Positions 5,331-64,000 of a stretch of DNA of 64,000 bases are shown piece after piece (the stretch's first letter is position 1; every line of letters begins with the position of its first letter). The notes beneath the pieces were generated by a model. That model ran no database searches and was not told where the DNA came from. It was given only the letters and a program-made list of their open reading frames with translations. The position numbers were made by a program, and so were the translations under genes. Origin of the DNA: Heliocidaris erythrogramma (taxonomy: Eukaryota; Echinodermata; Echinoidea; Camarodonta; Echinometridae); assembly GCA_025617745.1 (NCBI GenBank), contig CM046858.1, forward strand, positions 48,187,197 to 48,251,196. Reading direction: 5' to 3'.

Positions 5331-7262
5331 AAATAATTTATTTATTTATTTATTTCTGATATTTATACAGGGTGACTCATTATCACCAATATTGGTGGTC
5401 TTCCATGAGGCCCTGATAGCAATAGTAAGTAACAATAATAGCCAACAAAATCATGAAAATAAACTCATAACCCCCAAAAAATAAGAATAATAATAAATAT
5501 ATATATATACATGTATATACAAAGAATATGGTATCCTCGTAATCAAAATTGGTTTTACGAAAATGTTGAAATTGTTGCACATTCCTGTCATCTTAATTCA
5601 TAACGTATAGACGGTGATATTTTCAAAAATCTGTTGAAAAATAACCATTTATATATGGGTTATTTTGAAATGGCATTGTATAATTTTGAAAGTACATACA
5701 AGAAGTATAAAGACTACTTTAGCTCAGTATAGAAACAAAATTGTTATATACATATTTACAAAACATATTATAGGGTAGTATACTTATTCAAAGATTACAC
5801 AATGATTGCATGTAATATAGTATAACAATCGACTGTACAGTGTCTCTTATGAAACAATAAAATGCAAATTATTTATTGATTATAAATGATATGAAATCAT
5901 TCATACATTTTGAAAAGCATTATGTCATCGTACATTTTTGGGCAAAGAAACAAACCATCAAACATATTTTCCAAATCAGGGCAAAAAAAAATGACATATT
6001 ACTGATGAAGACAAATATAAAATAGCATCAAGTGAAATTTTCTAGCAATAATAATGAATATGACTCATTTACCATGCTGTTATGTAAACGAATCAAACCA
6101 ATCCTTTGCGATAAGGAATGAGAATAAAACTTCAGCTAAGAAACTGAATAAAATTTCTTATTGCGAACAGATTTTGCAAGATCTTTTGAACATATATTTA
6201 AAAGTGTTCACAGAGCTTGCCATTTTTAGTGATCTGTCCAACTGATTCCATGCTATAATTGAAGATACGAGGGGGCTATGTTTAAAGCATTCTGTTTTAT
6301 ACTTTGGCACAGAAAGTAAACCTTCATCTGCCTGCCTCGTATGATACTGATGAATGTCACTTACTTTAACTAAACTTTCTTGTAAATAGGATGGTGCCAA
6401 ATTGTGTGTACACTTGAACATCATAGTAACACGCTGAAATTCAAATCGTTTCTCAATTGGCATCCATTTCAGATTGCTAATTAATTCACTTGATGGAGTC
6501 TCATAACTTTTGTTTGAAATTATTCTAGCAGCTCGTTTTTGAACTTTCTGAAGCTTATACGTTTGTTCCTGATATCGATTTGACCACACAGAGGAACAAT
6601 AATCAAAGTGAGGCAACACGAGTGCATTATACAGCATCTTTAAAGATGTTAATGGTAAATAATCCTTCGCTCGTTTTATTACACTGACATTTCTCTGCGT
6701 TACCTTTGTTACTTTGTCAACGTGTTTGGACCAATTCAATTCTTCATCAATTAATATAACAAGACATTTGGCGACATTAACTCTTTTCAATACCTTTCCA
6801 TTTATAGAAACATTGAAGGATGTTATTTTGTTTAAATTAGCACGCGAAGCTATGACCATCACGCATGTCTTCTCCGTGTTTAGTACAAGGCGGTTTTGAT
6901 TAATCCATACCATTAATTCTTCCAATGCGAAAGAAAGTTTTTCTTCAACCTCAGCTACGCTACTTCCACTCACAGTTAAAGTGGTATCGTCCGCATACAT
7001 ATCAACATAACCATCAGATATACAATTTGGTAAAGTATTTACATAGATGGAAAATAATAACGGACCCAAAATAGACCCCTGTGGTACGCCCATCAATACA
7101 GTTAATGGATTAGATTTTGCACCTTGAAAATAAACAGACTGTTCACGACCTGTTAAATAAGATCTGAACCAGTTTACAATAATAGGAAATCACGTTTTTC
7201 AAGTAGATTAATAATAACAGATTTCTTTTGAAGACATCGTTATCTAATACATATTTCATAAC
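5331..7262 (-). pseudogene. 5'-truncated LINE with reverse transcriptase C-terminal half
   Basis: On the minus strand the frame from about 7193 to 6158 reads FRSYLTGREQ, then MGVPQGSILGPLLFSIYVN, the YADD catalytic box (VDMYADDTTLTV) and the thumb and C-terminal region with HFDYCSSVWS and an LQKVQKRAARI segment. Coding similarity continues upstream past a one-base frameshift near 7190 to about 7260, where it stops, so fingers and endonuclease are missing. The 3' end at 5355-5440 (a conserved 3' UTR mentioning GGGCCTCATGGAAGACCACC) ends in a (TAAA)n tail at 5331-5356. It shares this tail and protein with the longer copy at 18.96-22.0 kb. About 700 bases between the stop (6158) and the shared 3' UTR are unmatched there and may be an insertion. 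Confidence 0.8.
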
Positions 7263-18956: not shown

Positions 18957-21900
18957 GGCAACTGATATATTTATTTATTTATTTTATTTATTTATTTATT
19001 TATTTCTGATATTTATACAGGGTGGCTCATATCACCAATTTGGTGGTCTTCCATGAGGCCCTGTTTGGTAACAATAAAACAAATAACATCAACAATAATC
19101 AATATATATAAATACACAAGCATAAACACGTATAATACACATTAATTGGTAGATTAACAGAGCTTTTAGAGTGTATTTGAAAGTAGTCAACATTTTGATA
19201 AAAGTTTCAATTCCAGATATTAGGGGACTATGTTTGTATGTGTCCGTCCTAAATTTAGGTACACGCAATGTATCTCTTACAGCATGTCTTGTGCTGTGAT
19301 CATGTAGAGAGCTGACATGTTGTAAATCTTTTTTTAAGTATTCTGGTGCCACGCCATGCATTGCTTTATACATCATCACTGCACGCCCACCCTGGAAACG
19401 TGTCTGAATAGGCATCCAACCTAACCGACTAAACACATCTTTTGAGGATGCATCAAATCCTTCTCCCACCACTATACGGGCCTCCCGTTTTTTAACCTTT
19501 TGTAGTTTAATAGTTAGTCTTTGAAATCTTTCGGACCAAACAGAGGAACAATAATCAAAATGAGGAAGGACGATGGAATTATATAGAAGTTTCAGAGACC
19601 TGGTTGGAACATAACTTTTTGCTCGCTTAATTACACTAATATTTTTTTGAGCAGTCTTAATAACTTTTTCCACATGTTCCGTCCATCGCAACTCCTCATC
19701 GATCATGACACCTAGACACTTGGCAACTTTAACTCTTTTCAGACAACTGCCGTTTAGTGTGACAGAAAAATCCTTTACACTATTAAGAATTGATCGTGGT
19801 CCAATAAGCTTCACATTTGTCTTATCTGCATTAAGAACTAGACGGTTTTTTGTTACCCACGAAAAAACATTTTCTAAACCTTTTGTTAGCTTTCGCTCTA
19901 CTTCTGCAACACTTCTTCCGTTAACTGTTAGAGTGGTGTCGTCGGCATACATATCAACAATACCATCAATACATTTTGGTAAGCTATTAATGTAGATAGA
20001 AAAAAGAAGTGGCCCAAGAATTGAACCTTGTGGGACACCCATCACAATTTTTGAGGAACTTGAAGTGGTCCCTTTAAAACAAACCGTCTGTTCTCGGTTA
20101 GACAGATATGATACAAACCACTGAACACTTCTATCAGAACAGCCGATGGCTTTCAGTTTATGTAACAGAATATTGTGATCAACAGTGTCAAATGCTTTCC
20201 TCAAATCAATGACAGCAACACCTGTTAATTCATTGTTATCAAAATTCAATGACCATTGGTTAACTAATTTCATAAGAGCTGTTGCAGTAGAGTGAAGGGT
20301 ACGAAAACCTGATTGGATAGCGCACACTATTTCATATTTGTCGAGAAAATCACATAGTTGGAAATGCACAGCTTTTTCTAGAATCTTGTTTACTACGGAT
20401 AATATCGATATTGGTCTGTAAATACTGGGAGTGGACATATCACCAGCCTTGTAAATTGGAATAACTCTTGCTTTTTTCAAGATTGTAGGCACTTGTCCTG
20501 TTGCAATTGACTTATTGATAAGGCACGTTAAAGAGTCAACAATGACATATTTCGCCATTTTCAAAAGACGGCAACTTATTCCATCATCACCTGTTGCTTT
20601 ATCGTCACTCATGTTTTCAATTTTTTTTAAACAAATGCGTTCGCGACTTGCTGTAGCTCAAACTTTTCTTCAGTATTAGCTAGCTCATTTTCTTCTAGAA
20701 TGATTTCAGCGTGTTTCGGGATATCACGCGTGATATTTTGAGCACAAGTAACAAAATATTCATTAAATGTTTGATCAATACCTTTGTCATCATTAAATTT
20801 GTCCCAATCACGTCTAGGCTGCTGGGTAAGACATGATTGGATTTTGGAATAATGTGCTTGATACTCTGCCACATTTTTTTGCTATTCCCTTTACTCATAT
20901 CTATCTGAGAACTGTGATAATTTCTTTTTTTCTTTTTTCAAAAGATAATTCACTTTGTTCTTCAGTTCTTTGTACCTAGCCCATGATATGTCACCACCTT
21001 TCTTAAGCGCCACATCAATGACATGATCTCTTTCACGCATTGTTTCAATTATATCGTCATTAATCCAAGGGCACGCATTATTTCGTATTCTTTTTTCACA
21101 TAACGGCACATGTTTATCAACAACATGCATAAATAAATACTTTATGCCACGTCTCCCATGCAATGTCAATATTATCAAAATTTACATTATGATCTCCATG
21201 GAATTTTTTGAAGATCATAAAAATTATAGAAAATCTTTGAGATCGAGGTTTTTTAACGAACTTTTTGTACTTCATTGTAAACTATTATTATTTTTAATTT
21301 GGGTATTTATTGAAATTTACCAAAATACTTGTTTGTTTTTTTGTTGTTGTTGTTGTGGGTCAGGCTCGACTAGCACATGTGCTATTATCTGGCCCATTTT
21401 ACCAACCAATGCTTTTCTTCATTTATATGTAAATTGTATGTAAACAAAATGTATTGTAATTAAATGTTGTTGGTGGTAAAATAAATCAAATCAATCAATC
21501 AATCAATCAGATTTGCCCTTAGCGGATTTTTTATTGTTATTGAAACTTCTCATAGTATAGACTAGATAATGGTCACTAATGCTAGTCTTAAAAACACCAG
21601 TCTCAGAAAACAACTCGGGATTAGTGACAAAAATCAAGTCAATGATTGAGCATGTATTTTGAGTTATACGGGTAGGCGTGTCAACCAATTGCTTAAGACC
21701 ATATAACTCAAATAGGAATTGTATTTTTTCTGCATTTGTATCTCTTTTATCACTGATAAAATTACAGTTAAAATCTCCCAAAATAGCACAACAACTAATA
21801 TTTTCAGATAACTCAATTATCAACATCATAAAAAAACAATGCTCTCTTCAAATGCAATGTCAGAATAGATTATAATGTTTGGTTCATGGGCAACAAGTCA

Positions 21901-26296: not shown

Positions 26297-26919
26297 TTAA
26301 AGACATGGGTCGTTTGCCTTATTTTGGACCTCGACAGCAGCGAGGACTCGGCCATATATCTTGACCTCATCAATTAAGCCATATAAATACTCGTTATCCT
26401 TCCCCGACCCTGCTTGACCAATAGTGACCGGGGTATTGCGTGTCAGGATAGCACCGGTACAGCAGTTCTGGTTGGTCATATTCTGCTGCTGACCGTTCAG
26501 GTAATAGAGCAGTGCAGAACCGTCGTAAGTCATCACCACGTGGTTCCAGGTATTAGGCGGAGCGACGAGATCTATGTAGTCCCAGGTAGTTCCCGTAGCA
26601 GTTGTAATGACGCCACCACCCAACATCTGACCGCTGTTCTCCCTACCCATTCTGATCTCCCAACTCCCTGTATTGCTCCACCCATTGTTGACAATTCCTT
26701 GGTAGTTCTCCCATTGACCGGTGCGCTTGAACCAGACACTAACACTGAACTCAGTGCCCCAGGTGAAGTTGGCAAACGACTGGACACTTATTTTAGATGC
26801 ACCGCTGAAGGACGCTGCCTGACCGCATTGACCAGCTGTGAAGGAAACATCGCCAGTCGTGGTTCCGTCGCGGTTGTTACCAGAGCTATCAGTAGTGTCT
26901 CCCTCAAACGCGTAGTAAG
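26297..26919 (-). CDS. terminal exon: LamG-like (concanavalin A-like jellyroll) domain of a secreted mucin-like protein
   Basis: The exon starts after a clean acceptor (TTCCTGTTTTTCTTATAG) in phase 1 and ends at TAA. About 206 residues form a LamG/Laminin_G_3-type jellyroll. It begins AYYAFEGDTTDSSGNNRDG, the usual first strand with the D-x-SGN-x-x-x-G motif. FSVSVWFKRTG and TWNHVVMTYDGSALLYYLNG are family core strands, and LIDEVKIYGRVL is the closing I/LDEV-x-IY-x-R-x-L motif. Cys pairs are present at GQCGQ, NCCTG and DPCL. Such domains bind sugars, matrix or partners outside the cell. It follows the Ser/Thr-rich exons upstream on the same strand, all phase 1, giving a stalk-plus-lectin-like layout. 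The track-style start further upstream (to 26950) would include intron sequence. Confidence 0.75.
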
Positions 26920-26971
26920 CTATAAGAAAAACAGGAATAACGAAAGGCATGTTTCTAAATTATTGTTATTT

Positions 26972-57818: not shown

Positions 57819-58745
57819 TCAGTAAATTGCAACAAAAGAGAACAGATATATCAACGTGAAGTGCCAAAGAGAAGGAAGCATGAATTGCCTACAAACCCCT
57901 GATTCTATTTGAGATTTTATTTTGGGCGTGGGAGTGATTTCAGGCCTACTGATGTTGTTAGTAGCCGATGTAGTGATAGTATTAAGAGGAATTCTCGTGT
58001 GAGTTACGGGTTTCCCACTTGGTGGCCACCCGAAGTCATTACATAGAGCTTCACTTACATTTGAGGTTACATCATGTGAGCAGCAAGAGAAATGACTGTT
58101 ATGAGGTAGTAAGAATGCTCCCCTCATAACGTGGCCATCATCCGTAATCTCAACTTTGACGTCAATCTTATGACTGTTCTGGTAACAAGTTATTGTATCT
58201 TTGGCACTTCCAGTGGTGGCTCGACAATGTACTTCGTACGAATAGTTGTCGTTATCACTTAAAGTGATGAAGCACTTTGCAGGTCCAGGGGGAAAGTGGA
58301 CCCGAATCTCCTTTCTTAAAGTTTCGAACAAAACGTCTTCGAAACCAGGTTTGATTACAGTTAATAAATACACATCCTCGTCTATAGTATCAACACTATC
58401 TATGACAATGTTTATGCAGGGGGACGTCGTTATCCAGTTGAATGAGGTCGTAAATCTTGGGAACTGGGATGGGCTTTTAAAGCCCTTGATATCGAAGTCT
58501 CCATTGTTACAGAATGGTCGAGACATGGATCCGAACCGAGCTATAAAATATGGGACATCATGGGATGTATTATTATTAGGTGGGAGATAGAATGGAACCA
58601 CACCAGATTTGCCTGCTTGAAGAGTTACTCGTTCGGTACTGGCACTGCCTGCTACTAGAACCGGATTGCCTGCTAGAATGATAGCCAATGCGATAATCAT
58701 CTGGAGGAATCTTTGTGTGAGGACCCGGAGTATAGGATTTTTTTT
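57819..58745 (-). CDS. exon encoding hydrophobic segment plus Ig-like extracellular region
   Basis: A strong acceptor (TTTTTACTTCATCCCCATTCAG) precedes an open frame ending in TGA. It begins KKNPILRVLTQRFLQ, then the hydrophobic MIIALAIILAGNPVLVAG. About 270 residues follow that look like two Ig-like modules: the first ends near DTIDEDVYLLTV, the second runs from KCFITLSDND through SYEVHCRA and ITCYQNS to HFSCCSHDV. N-glycosylation sites NNTS, NYS, NVS and NIS, a Ser/Thr/Pro stalk, and a hydrophobic C-terminus (LPSLWHFTLIYLFSFVAIY) complete it. Two readings fit. As the last exon of the ankyrin gene (phase 0 entry) it is a signal anchor with an extracellular C-terminus. Starting at the ATG at 58698-58700 it is a 293-residue secreted or GPI-anchored protein. 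The Ig assignment rests on pattern, not search. Confidence 0.6.
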   Translation of the reverse strand, partial: KKNPILRVLTQRFLQMIIALAIILAGNPVLVAGSASTERVTLQAGKSGVVPFYLPPNNNTSHDVPYFIARFGSMSRPFCNNGDFDIKGFKSPSQFPRFTTSFNWITTSPCINIVIDSVDTIDEDVYLLTVIKPGFEDVLFETLRKEIRVHFPPGPAKCFITLSDNDNYSYEVHCRATTGSAKDTITCYQNSHKIDVKVEITDDGHVMRGAFLLPHNSHFSCCSHDVTSNVSEALCNDFGWPPSGKPVTHTRIPLNTITTSATNNISRPEITPTPKIKSQIESGVCRQFMLPSLWHFTLIYLFSFVAIY

Positions 58746-59620
58746 CTGAATGGGGATGAAGTAAAAACAGAAAGGAGTACAAAATATAATTAATTTAATT
58801 CGCAAAAACTATACACAAGTAACATTTCTAGAGGCCGTGTACATAGTAGATTTGAATAGTTGGGACTGAACTAAAGACGCCTAATAATTATGGCGAGGTT
58901 GCACCAATGAAAATGAATAGATATATTGAAGGTACAAAGTCAAATACAATAGAAAGGAACCAACAACCAACAAACTATTTTAGTCTGTATGTAAGGTGTT
59001 GCATGTCGCTATTCTATATTCAAAATATGAGCTAAAACTTCTACAAGTCAAGGCACCCGTATATACGCGTTCATATAGAAAAGATACGACTTGGGATCCT
59101 TGCTTGGGGTTTTATGCTATCCTATATTTTCTTCATAATCCTTAACCATTAACCCATAGAATGCCAGGTACATATTGTGAGGTTCATATTATACATTTTA
59201 GCTGTACACAATTTTTTTGCAGGTGGTTAGTACCCTTCAAATTAAACCCCATAAGTGCCTACTTATGTTAACATACTTATTACTCACATAATCTACTTGC
59301 ATTTTACAATAATGCCAATTATGAGCATTCCATTGAAATTATGTATTTACAAAATAAATAGAATTTTCATATCTATTTACCATTCGAAATCGCGAGTTAC
59401 CTTTATATTTTTTAAATAACCACCGGGTTTTATACTCCGTAATGTCTCCATCTATAAGGTTCCCGTACAGGTCTGATTAAGGTATCAAAATGGTCGAATC
59501 GTAACACTTGTATAGTAATGCGTTAAATAATAAACATATGAGCCTGTAAAATTACTTTAAAACTTCAGAAATTACCCATTCATCTATTTGTAAAGAATAC
59601 AATACCAGTCTTTGCTTTAC

Positions 59621-59720
59621 CTTGATTTTCCATCCTGAGTTTAAGGAAGTTCTTCCGGCAGAGAAAGGATCGACATTTTTCGGTTTCGGGGGAACAATAG
59701 TCAGTGAATCTGTCAGGACA
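59621..59720 (-). CDS. linker exon of the ankyrin gene
   Basis: Acceptor AATTGTTTTTCAG and donor ATCAAG|GTAAAG bound 100 bases. With entry phase 2 from the exon at 60477 the frame reads VLTDSLTIVPPKPKNVDPFS, then AGRTSLNSGWKIK, and leaves in phase 0, joining KKNPILRV of the next exon. The junction makes a basic KIKKK cluster just before the hydrophobic segment, as expected on the cytosolic side. Another frame (CPDRFTDYCSPETEKCRSFL) is also open and Cys-rich, but does not match the phases on either side. Confidence 0.5.
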
Positions 59721-59876
59721 CTGAAAAACAATTGTAGATATAATTTTTTAGGTGAAAGGAAGATTTAATTGGCTAAGTTGTACAACTGTAGATATAATTT
59801 TCAGGTGAAAGGAAGATTTAATTGGCTAAGTTGTACAATGGCTGTGATATTATACAGTATAGGACCCAAATCAGTA

Positions 59877-60168
59877 GGGGGTAACCTCGCTAGTCATAAG
59901 GACCGCTATTAATAAGGACCACTTATTCATAAGGACGGCTATCCATAACGCGTGACTAAATGAATAGCGGTTTTGTATGAATAGCGGTCTTTATGAATAG
60001 CGAGCAAACCATGGACGAATTACCTCGCTATTTATAAGGACTTCCATTCATTAGGACCACTATTCATAACTCTTCATAACCATTCACAAGGACCACTCTT
60101 CATAACGCTTGTTAAATGAATAGCGCTTTTCAATGAATAGCGGTCCTTATGAATAGCGAGCGGACCCC
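59877..60168. mobile_element. fold-back element of GAATAGCGGTCC words, copy 2
   Basis: Ends in ATGAATAGCGGTCCTTATGA and GAATAGCGAGCGGACCCC. Interior repeats both orientations of the word, as at 27.75-27.95 kb. Located in an intron of the ankyrin gene. Confidence 0.8.
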
Positions 60169-60476
60169 ATCAGTAGTACTTTGGAGTTAAACTATTACTA
60201 ATATTACTTCCATGATATAATCATACACATATGATGCTCGGAATGTCCAGCACATAGAAAGAATCTGATTTGATAACGGTTATGTAACTACTTACTGCAA
60301 TAAAGACACATCATTATTATTTATTATTAATGAATCTAAATCATTATTATTGTTATCAATTCATCATCATCATCACTATTAATTATCATTATTATTGAGA
60401 ATGCCAACATTATTATTGTTATTATGATTATTGATACCACTGTTACCTCGAGATAAAAGGAACAAATGGCTATTAC

Positions 60477-60544
60477 CTCTTGAATTTCTTTGAATTATCC
60501 TTAGTTGGTTGATCATTTTGAGCATTCTTCAGTAAAAACGGTTC
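60477..60544 (-). CDS. short linker exon of the ankyrin gene
   Basis: Acceptor TTTACTGCCGACAG and donor AAGAG|GTAATA bound 68 bases. The only open frame enters in phase 0, matching the donor at 61035, and reads EPFLLKNAQNDQPTKDNSKK then FK, leaving in phase 2. Hydrophilic and Lys-rich; no domain. Kept because both phase joins agree. Confidence 0.5.
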
Positions 60545-61035
60545 CTGTCGGCAGTAAATCACACCCAATACAGAGAAAATTGATTAGAATGCGGTATAGG
60601 GATATGAGTTTAGAGCCACCATATCTTCAGTCATTTAACATTTAACTCGATGAAAATATACAATCCAATGTTTAATTTAAGCCTGCATTTTTATGTCAAG
60701 GGGTTTTTCTTTTGTCAAATAGAATGGAAAATTCTATTTTTTTAAATGTTGCTTACTTTCTTAGTCAGGAAAATAGTTTTATGCTCATTATGATTTTAAG
60801 GCTACACCAATGAGACAATATCAAGAGACACTATGCGTAAATATTCAAATTTGAATGACGAGCGCCGCTAAACCTAAAACAACAACAACACCACAATATT
60901 ATGGAAATGCACAATAGTTTGACACGTTTCTATATCAGCTATTCTTTGCATATGCAAACGTACTGATGTAAAAAAAAAATAAAAAAAATGAAAACAACAA
61001 ACACATAAACAAACAAACGGTAAGTATTTACTCAC

Positions 61036-61893
61036 TGTCAATAAAGCGTGGCATCTTGAATCAATTTCTTCATATGGATGGCCATTCGTCTCTTTCGTAT
61101 TTAGGAAGGATTGGTCAAATCCGTCATGTTCCCATGTGCCAGGTACATTCAGTAATGATGACGCATCGTGGACTGTTCTGTTTGTTAAGCTGTCAAATTG
61201 TACATGAGCGAAATCTCCCATAAGGTCTCCACATGATTCCCTTGCTACAGAACCTTTCAATGCTTCGACATGAACTTGCTCTGCGGTTTTGGCACTTTTG
61301 TCGGGACATTTCTGTTTAGCAGTAATGAAAGGAGCTATTTCATCCTGTTCTCCCTTTTCTACAAGGGGGGATATGGTGGGTAGATGTTCATTGTGAACTG
61401 CTTCGGCCTCTTTTTCATCCGCAACTGCGAGAGTACAGTTATTCATGTTGTCCATACTGGCTACTCCAGATGGTTGTTCAGGATCAAAGCGTTTGGCTGG
61501 ACACTTAAGAAGTGACTTCCCTTCACTGCAACACCTGTCTTTATGCTCTTGTAGTGCCTCAGATCTTCTGGTGGTAAGATATTTTGTACAACCTAGATAG
61601 CTTCCAGGATCACCCGTCTCGTCACCTCCATGTTGGGTCAGATGCTTCACAACTTTTGAATGACCTGCATCTTCTGCTCCTTGAAGAGGAGTCAAGCCTT
61701 CAGTGTCTCTGGCGGTGAGGTCAGCTCCCTTCATTGCAAAGAACTCGACTACGTCTCGGTGACCTTCCTGTTCAGCAGCATAGTGTGGCGTCCATCCATC
61801 TCTATCTGGTTCACTAGTATTGTGGCCTACTAGGTATTTCACGATATCGATATCAAAATTGTAAAATGCTATGCCACATTCTCTTCTTCCATC
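61036..61893 (-). CDS. ankyrin gene: last two to three repeats and disordered linker, downstream of an in-frame TAA
   Basis: This is the same frame as the ankyrin repeats to the right, separated from them by TAA at 61894-61896. It has a damaged repeat (IVKYLVGHN), then DGWTPHYAAEQEGHRDVVEF and EGLTPLQGAEDAGHSKVVKH, each with the TPL-x-x-A...GH-x-x-VV ankyrin core. About 190 hydrophilic residues of linker follow (Cys-containing CTKYLTTRRSEAL and KCPAKRFDPEQPSG, and an acidic EKGEQDEIAPF). The exon ends at CHALLT|GTGAGT, a strong donor in phase 0. That some 280 codons stay open after the stop suggests the stop is recent, an error, or avoided by some means. The tail beyond 61036 (Phe/Cys-rich) is intron. 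Confidence 0.6.
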
Positions 61894-64000
61894 TTACCCC
61901 TTGGAGATGAGAAACTTTGCCACTTCAGTGTATCCATAATGTGTTGCCATGAAAAGTAGGGTCAATTCGTCAGACCTGGTAACGTAAGCTCCATTCGCCA
62001 CAAGAAATTTGACAACTTCTAAATGGCCATTTAGAACGGCAGCATGTAATGGTCTCCAACCACTGTGATCTGTCTTGTTCACATTAGATCCTTGTTGAAC
62101 GAGGTATTGAACTAGGTCAAGATGACCAATAGCAGCTGCACTATGCAGTGGAATCTTACCTACACTAACATCATTTTCCACGTCGGCTCCCTGGGATATA
62201 AAGTATTTGACGATGTCTAAATGACCAAAATGTACTGCGGCACAAAGAGGGGTCATTCCGTCATATCTGTTCCTCGTTATCCCGTACGTCTGGAGATATT
62301 TTACGGCTTCCAACTGGCCATGTTGAACTGCAGCATTGAATGGTGTCCATCCAGTGCGATCTTTCTTGTTCACATCGGATCCTAGGTGAATGAGATATTG
62401 CATCATTTCAATGTCACCTTGGATAGCTGCTCCGTGAAGTGGAATCTGACCTTTATCATTTTCATCTTTTACGTCAGCTCCTTTAGAAATAAGGAATTTG
62501 GCGATCTCTAGATGACCGAATCTTGCTGCGGTAAAGAGTGGTGTGATTCCATTATACGTGTTCTCCGTCACACCTTCAGTCTGAAGACATTTTACAGCTT
62601 CCAAATGGCCATACTGAACAGCAGTATGGAATGGTGTCCATCCAGTGCGATCTTTCTTGTTCACATCAGCTCCATGTTGAATGAGATATTCCATGACTTC
62701 GATGCGACCATTACCAGCTGCAGCGTGGAGAGCAGTCATTCCTTCGTCATCTTTATTGTTCACATCAGTTCCTTGGGAAATGAAGAATTTGACGAGATCT
62801 AAATGGTCACATTGTGCTGCGGCATAGAGTGGGGTCATTCCGGCATATCTGTTCTGCTTTGCTCCATTAGCCATGAGATATTTGACGGCTTCTAGATGAC
62901 CATATTGAACTGCAGCATTGAATGGTGTCCAACCCTTGGCATTACCCTTGTTCACATCAGATCCTTGCTGAATGAGATATTCCATGACTTCTATGTGACC
63001 GTTAACAGCTGCTCCATGAAGAGGAATCCGACCTGTATCATTTTCCTCGTTCACGTCAGCTCCTTTTGAAATGAAGAACTGGACAAGATTTAAATGCCCA
63101 AATTTTGCAGCAGCATAGAGTGGGGTCATTCCGTCATATCTGTTCTGCTTTGCCCCTTTAGTCATGAGATATTTGACGGCTTCTAGATGACCATTTTGAA
63201 CTGCAGCATTGAATGGTGTCCAACCCTTGGGAGTACCCTTGTTCACATCAGATCCTTGCTGAATGAGATATTCCATGACTTCTATGTGACCGTTAACAGC
63301 TGCTCCATGGAGAGGAATTCGACCTGAATCATTTTCCTCGTTCACGTCAGCTCCTTTGGAAATGAAGAACTGGACAAGATTTAAATGCCCAAATTCTGCA
63401 GCAGCATAGAGTGGGTTCACTCCGTTATATCTGTTCTGTTTTGCCCCTTTAGCCATGAGATATTTGACGGCTTCTTGATGACCACATTGAACTGCAGCAT
63501 TGAATGGTGACCAACCCTTGGCATTACCCTTGTTCACGTCAGATCCTTGCTGAATGAGATATTCCATGACTTCTATGTGACCGCGAATAGCTGCTCCATG
63601 AAGAGGAATCTGACCTGAATCATTTTCCTCGTTCACGTCAGCTCCATTTGAAATGAAGAACTGGACAAGATTTAAATGCCCAAATTTTGCAGCAGCATAG
63701 AGTGGGGTCATTCCGTCATATCTGTTCTGCTTTGCCCCTTTAGTCATGAGATATTTGACGGCTTCTAGATGACCATTTTGAACTGCAGCATTGAATGGTG
63801 TCCAACCCTTGGGAGTACCCTTGTTCACATCAGATCCTTGCTGAATGAGATATTCCATGACTTCTATGTGACCGTTAACAGCTGCTCCATGGAGAGGAAT
63901 TCGACCTGAATCATTTTCCTCGTTCACGTCAGCTCCTTTGGAAATGAAGAACTGGACAAGATTTAAATGCCCAAATTCTGCAGCAGCATAGAGTGGGTTC
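61894..64000 (-). CDS. ankyrin repeat protein, about 21 repeats, N-terminus beyond right edge
   Basis: A continuous minus-strand frame enters from the window edge and ends at TAA (61894-61896). It is a chain of 31-33 residue ankyrin repeats arranged in superunits of three (33+33+31 residues, 291 bp). Typical members are GRIPLHGAAVNGHIEVMEYL, GWTPFNAAVQNGHLEAVKYL and GMTPLYAAAKFGHLNLVQFF. All have the TPLH-like turn, the A-A helix and GH-x-x-(V/I)-x-x-L. The superunits are very alike, showing recent internal amplification; 63120-63418 is identical to 63702-64000 at 582-bp offset. Ankyrin arrays bind other proteins in the cytosol or at membranes. No start codon is in the window. The stop falls within a repeat (FLISKG), unusual for a natural end. 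Confidence 0.85.
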   Translation of the reverse strand, partial: NPLYAAAEFGHLNLVQFFISKGADVNEENDSGRIPLHGAAVNGHIEVMEYLIQQGSDVNKGTPKGWTPFNAAVQNGHLEAVKYLMTKGAKQNRYDGMTPLYAAAKFGHLNLVQFFISNGADVNEENDSGQIPLHGAAIRGHIEVMEYLIQQGSDVNKGNAKGWSPFNAAVQCGHQEAVKYLMAKGAKQNRYNGVNPLYAAAEFGHLNLVQFFISKGADVNEENDSGRIPLHGAAVNGHIEVMEYLIQQGSDVNKGTPKGWTPFNAAVQNGHLEAVKYLMTKGAKQNRYDGMTPLYAAAKFGHLNLVQFFISKGADVNEENDTGRIPLHGAAVNGHIEVMEYLIQQGSDVNKGNAKGWTPFNAAVQYGHLEAVKYLMANGAKQNRYAGMTPLYAAAQCDHLDLVKFFISQGTDVNNKDDEGMTALHAAAGNGRIEVMEYLIQHGADVNKKDRTGWTPFHTAVQYGHLEAVKCLQTEGVTENTYNGITPLFTAARFGHLEIAKFLISKGADVKDENDKGQIPLHGAAIQGDIEMMQYLIHLGSDVNKKDRTGWTPFNAAVQHGQLEAVKYLQTYGITRNRYDGMTPLCAAVHFGHLDIVKYFISQGADVENDVSVGKIPLHSAAAIGHLDLVQYLVQQGSNVNKTDHSGWRPLHAAVLNGHLEVVKFLVANGAYVTRSDELTLLFMATHYGYTEVAKFLISKG

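Follow-up and report, generated by a model that had tools for sequence, protein, structure and literature searches.

The window, i.e., the whole stretch of 64,000 nucleotides analyzed here (C6:48187197-48251196, contig CM046858.1), originates from the genome of the sea urchin Heliocidaris erythrogramma, which comprises 1.06 Gb in 26 contigs. COX1, located on contig C24, contains 11 TGA codons, is open when translated by the echinoderm mitochondrial code, and looks echinoid in sequence. On its minus strand, one end of the window carries a chain of candidate exons in the order ankyrin exon, small exon 1, small exon 2 and a last exon with a hydrophobic segment and an Ig-like part (Table 1). We denote this window locus by W, and further loci of the same genome by other single letters.

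Table 1. Features of the exon chain at locus W. Positions refer to the window.
Feature	Position	Strand	Basis and remarks
Ankyrin-repeat exon, 3' part	61036..64000	-	Pfam Ank hits; donor ACA/GTGAGT in phase 0, last base 61036
In-frame TAA in ankyrin exon	61894..61896	-	287 codons ahead of the donor
Small exon 1	60477..60544	-	68 nt; phase 0 in, phase 2 out
Small exon 2	59621..59720	-	100 nt; phase 2 in, phase 0 out
Last exon	57819..58745	-	Phase 0 in; 308 codons plus stop (stop at 57819-57821)
Basic segment (KKNPILRVLTQRFLQ) ahead of hydrophobic stretch	58701..58745	-	
Met and hydrophobic segment, 18 residues	58647..58700	-	Hydropathy; comparison with unlinked relatives
Ig-like domain 1, V-type	58287..58646	-	Family alignment, Pfam V-set in relatives, weak PDB profile hits; limits set by us
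Ig-like domain 2, cysteine-rich	58023..58286	-	Alignment and PDB profile; limits set by us
Hydrophobic C-terminal tail after SG motif, GPI-signal-like	57822..57890	-	Hydropathy, alignment, by eye

The Ankyrin Exon

The assignment to the ankyrin repeats is given by a repeated motif of approximately 33 residues and a Pfam Ank_2 match at 1.2e-213, and the exon closes with a tail that is free of such repeats. Its open frame extends beyond the window end, to about C6:48254369. Inside this exon, a 291-nt tandem unit is repeated from 62216 to 63997 with 6.1 copies and an 85% match, representing a recent internal repeat expansion.

A sequence-only reading of this DNA had implied that the window copy yields a full protein, but it overlooked the in-frame TAA. 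Ahead of this stop, 701 codons are open inside the window and 1759 in all; a shortened repeat adjoins it, and the places aligned to it read through at loci A, C and D. Due to the stop, the W copy is probably broken or truncated and not functional as a full-length protein. We lean slightly towards regarding W as a pseudogene, which would be compatible with a real family: the TAA next to the shortened repeat speaks for it, while the rest of the W chain is open and the stop could be a polymorphism or an assembly error.

Phase of the Small Exons

All borders proposed by the sequence-only reading, from the ankyrin donor to the start of the last exon, sit where it had placed them, and its phase claims hold as well. 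The ankyrin exon exits in phase 0; small exon 1 contains 0, 1 and 3 stops in its three phases, is thus open in phase 0 only, and exits in phase 2. Small exon 2 (0, 3 and 0 stops) is open in the required phase, plus one other, and restores phase 0. A cysteine-rich frame of small exon 2 was rejected, as it contains stops at loci C and D and, with the acceptor unchanged, is out of step with the phase in which small exon 1 exits. Moving the acceptor inwards by 11 bases would bring the phases together, and what counts against that variant are the stops.

When the 2290-base intron was shuffled with dinucleotide composition retained, at least one phase-closing two-exon chain appeared in 5 of 200 shuffles, compared to two such chains in the real intron, with splice-site weights that are approximate. 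By itself, the phase match of the small exons favors a real chain without deciding it: because five shuffled introns also gave a chain, phase alone is suggestive. The case for the exon chain is carried by its conservation in paralogs.

Paralogous Loci on the Same Contig

For the comparison, stretches of about 9.9 kb were read at ten loci (A to J), with more sequence upstream of W and A to D, and stretches of 7.1 kb at K, M, N and O. The exon chain of W recurs at five further loci on C6, namely A, B, C, D, and E. A genome-wide search with the ankyrin tail (nine candidates, all nine scored) gave five matches, all of them on C6; each pairs with one of the five Ig matches of highest score and lies 1.9-3.1 kb upstream of it. 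Locus E is the sixth with the chain; its ankyrin tail has diverged (27% identity, 7.8e-8). Relatives with the same exon order, on which the sequence-only reading had made its proposal depend, are thus found at A to E, which are paralogs within the same genome.

In the order W, A, B, C, D, E, small exon 1 measures 68, 77, 68, 71, 71 and 68 nt, and small exon 2 measures 100, 106, 103, 85, 103 and 103 nt; within each series, the lengths are congruent modulo 3. AG/GT borders and an open joined frame into the last exon are present at all six loci, where the borders of A to E were chosen by eye to match W and not predicted blind. The ankyrin donor reads GTGAGT or GTAAGT and lies in phase 0 in six of six cases; at E it is the sole phase-0 donor out of four candidates. 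Likewise, the stretch from the last-exon acceptor to the start of the hydrophobic segment is open in the same phase throughout the six loci. In blastn comparisons of W against each of A to D, islands of similarity cover small exon 1 in all four cases and small exon 2 in all four, the latter only partly in C. One additional island, in W against A alone, lies at 60198-60300, outside the exons of the chain. At E, none of the three phases of small exon 1 contains a stop. By our approximate weights, some splice sites score poorly: the small exon 2 acceptors range from -2.7 to 0.1, and the Ig acceptor of E scores -1.9.

Ahead of the donor, the ankyrin exons are open over 2551 codons in A, 1138 in B, 1216 in D and 1863 in E, in each case as far as the sequence was read; therefore, the linked family as such is no relic. 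Locus C carries a frameshift in its ankyrin exon. At a seventh locus, H, both an ankyrin and an Ig exon are present and both are broken, while no trace of the small exons was found there; for these reasons, the counts on the exon chain and on dN/dS do not include H. In the ankyrin search, every C6 match among those listed (126 of 1566 candidates scored) falls on one of these seven linked loci. Considering the stop in W, the frameshift in C and the damage to both parts of H, the copies of the linked family likely undergo birth and death.

The Last Exon and Its Predicted Protein Parts

At all six linked loci with the chain, the hydrophobic stretch reaches a hydropathy of 2.2-2.8 over 19 residues and is preceded by a flank with more basic than acidic residues. 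By charge and hydropathy, the protein may have a type II topology, i.e., an internal signal-anchor with a cytosolic N-terminus. Judged by eye against unlinked relatives, the hydrophobic segment of W appears to be a secretory signal peptide. The sequence-only reading, which had placed a hydrophobic segment after a basic cluster, did not consider an origin as a signal peptide. The hydrophobic stretch extends beyond the signal-like segment in A, B, C, and D, where the residues preceding the old Met are also hydrophobic; in W, it is broken up by basic residues.

An SG motif is found in seven of ten alignment rows, and a hydrophobic C-terminal tail is present at six of six linked loci. Hydropathy and alignment, assessed by eye, would suit a GPI-signal-like C-terminus.

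The assignment of the middle part to the Ig superfamily is supported by profile similarity for the family, and by homology for the W copy. A Pfam scan of the W last-exon protein returned no family, and no usual Ig cysteine pair was seen in Ig-like domain 1. Among ten family members, W not included in the positive cases, Pfam V-set matches three (best 2e-5), and weak matches were obtained to Ig_3 in two and to I-set in one. Profile matches of the Ig part in the PDB are headed by two-domain receptors of the Ig superfamily, junctional adhesion molecule A (JAM-A) and CAR, and by the polymeric Ig receptor, at E-values of 0.006-0.024 with none below 0.001. A phmmer search of the W ORF against the PDB gave nothing convincing (four matches, best E 0.3), and an AlphaFold single-sequence model of the W Ig ORF is poor, with a mean pLDDT of 38.7.

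Taken along the chain, the product of the open copies would consist of an N-terminal region, the ankyrin chain, its tail, a basic segment, the hydrophobic segment, two Ig-like domains, a stalk and a hydrophobic end. In the N-terminal region, scanned in A and W, no Pfam domain was found; a related stretch is present in B, C, and D.

Unlinked Ig Relatives

The Ig part has at least 150 matches in the genome (150 of 314 candidates scored), all at E 0.001 or better. Nearly all of them are single frames that stay open over about 170-430 codons; two contain an inner TAG. This single-exon, secretory Ig-like family is homologous to the last exon of the linked loci, but differs in what lies upstream: the ankyrin query matched nothing within the 6-8.5 kb read upstream of any of the eight distant members F, G, I, J, K, M, N, and O. 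By eye, the unlinked relatives K and M have a type I look, with a membrane segment and a cytoplasmic tail.

In the Ig tree, the seven linked exons form one clade with a support of 85/94, which is recovered in 88% of 200 bootstrap trees. The tree is midpoint-rooted, has one unlinked row on a long branch, was built without locus M and partial match rows, and represents H by its first piece only. A single clade is as would be expected if the linked Ig exons go back to one capture event. Within the clade, the last exons of W and D are 97-100% identical over their 3' half and 72-85% over most of the 5' half, while the first 60 columns, which contain a length difference, show 40% identity and the ankyrin tails differ strongly. 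This suggests gene conversion between W and D in the 3' half of the last exon (about 57819-58286 of the window).

Taken alone, the last exon has the layout of a secreted protein: a signal-like segment, Ig and a GPI-like tail. Together with the distant relatives, which show no ankyrin match in the upstream sequence read, this agrees with two neighboring genes that were duplicated as a block, an ankyrin gene ending at or before the small exons and, independent of it, an Ig gene for a secreted or GPI-anchored protein that starts from the Met at 58700. Five of the seven linked loci (W, A, B, C, and D) keep the Met at the start of the hydrophobic segment, which would allow such an own start. However, it is lost in E, whose frame is otherwise open, and in the broken H, and both small exons as well as the stretch from acceptor to hydrophobic segment are open in the same phase at all six loci, so that we regard separate neighbors as unlikely. 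The single-gene reading of ankyrin repeats, hydrophobic segment and Ig part, as first proposed from the window alone, is supported by the chain, its phases, the open frame and the lost Met; a full protein from W is not supported.

Selection and Drift

Selection differs between parts of the chain. The hydrophobic and Ig part evolves at a dN/dS of 0.37 (0.31-0.44), and the ankyrin tail at 0.69 (0.54-0.92; five loci, E left out). For the two small exons, the ratio is 0.84 (bootstrap 0.56-1.22), and for the segment ahead of the hydrophobic stretch 0.64 (0.36-1.17), neither being clearly below 1. These linkers are free of stops all the same, and thus the frame is kept open while the sequence changes fast. 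When the small exons and the pre-hydrophobic segment were left to drift neutrally in simulation, they stayed stop-free in 0 of 20000 runs at the full distance and in 5 of 20000 at half of it. The simulation started from A and assumed a star tree, although the loci are not independent; because they share descent, it is too strict by an uncertain amount.

Among five parts of the last exon that were compared, the signal-peptide-like segment has the lowest dN/dS, 0.26. This value, along with the Met and signal-peptide-like segment remaining in W, A, B, C, and D, would suit a dual use of the exon, in which one transcript gives the fusion and an internal promoter gives a short secreted Ig protein. 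The absence of the Met in E and H speaks against it, and we consider such a dual use possible but doubtful.

Interpretation and Known Systems

That the exon chain recurs with its phases and an open frame is evident from the genome sequence at six loci. With good confidence, we read W as belonging to a small family of chimeric sea urchin ankyrin-Ig genes that is clustered on one chromosome and arose when an ankyrin-repeat gene captured, as its last exon, a secretory Ig gene of one exon situated 3' of it, with two short linker exons joining both. With more reserve, we favor the view that this capture gave rise to a lineage-specific receptor family, in which the formerly cleavable signal peptide would have turned into the internal signal-anchor of the fused protein.

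The product may be a long cytosolic ankyrin protein with the internal hydrophobic stretch as its anchor. In open copies, the cytosolic ankyrin part would reach about 2,500 residues at most, and two Ig domains would lie outside the cell; the latter would be the sensing part, and the ankyrin chain an intracellular scaffold. Given the kinds of domain and the expansion of the family, a role in recognition, either in immunity or in cell contact, is most likely. In case signal peptidase still cuts the protein, one mRNA would give a membrane ankyrin stub and a separate GPI-anchored Ig protein. If the capture scenario is true, the locus documents a recent gene capture making an unusual receptor layout, in a genome that still retains the unfused relatives. 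The case would also exemplify how a signal peptide is recruited to anchor a protein in the membrane from within its chain, and the large repertoire of Ig-like genes in the sea urchin would gain a further type of receptor.

JAM-A, CAR and the polymeric Ig receptor, which the Ig part of the family resembles by its top profile matches, are type I proteins whose signal peptide is cleaved, and they are not known to carry ankyrin repeats. Cytosolic ankyrin repeats tied to a membrane, as proposed for the fused protein, are found in TRP channels, KIDINS220 and the plant protein ACD6. Unlike the proposed fusion, these proteins cross the membrane several times and are not known to carry Ig domains outside the cell.

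Among open-licence PMC papers, considered by title and the start of the abstract, we found no description of an ankyrin-transmembrane-Ig protein. From a sea cucumber, an Ig-NACHT receptor, NLRC4, is reported, a chimeric echinoderm protein with Ig on an intracellular-type module (PMC8699970). As described there, NLRC4 has NACHT in the place where the proposed urchin fusion has ankyrin repeats.

Further Features of the Window

From 59884 to 60166, a CGCTATTCATAAGGAC-like unit recurs within the intron of the chain as short repeats in direct and inverted orientation, which gives this stretch the look of a small mobile element. An ORF at 26300-26959 on the minus strand encodes a Laminin_G_3 (concanavalin-like) domain (E 9.9e-23). 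Two ORFs with a reverse transcriptase domain, at 6161-7189 and 19092-20657 on the minus strand, are probably retrotransposons. Between 50588 and 53736, near-alike open frames spaced about 1.35-1.37 kb apart suggest a tandem repeat.
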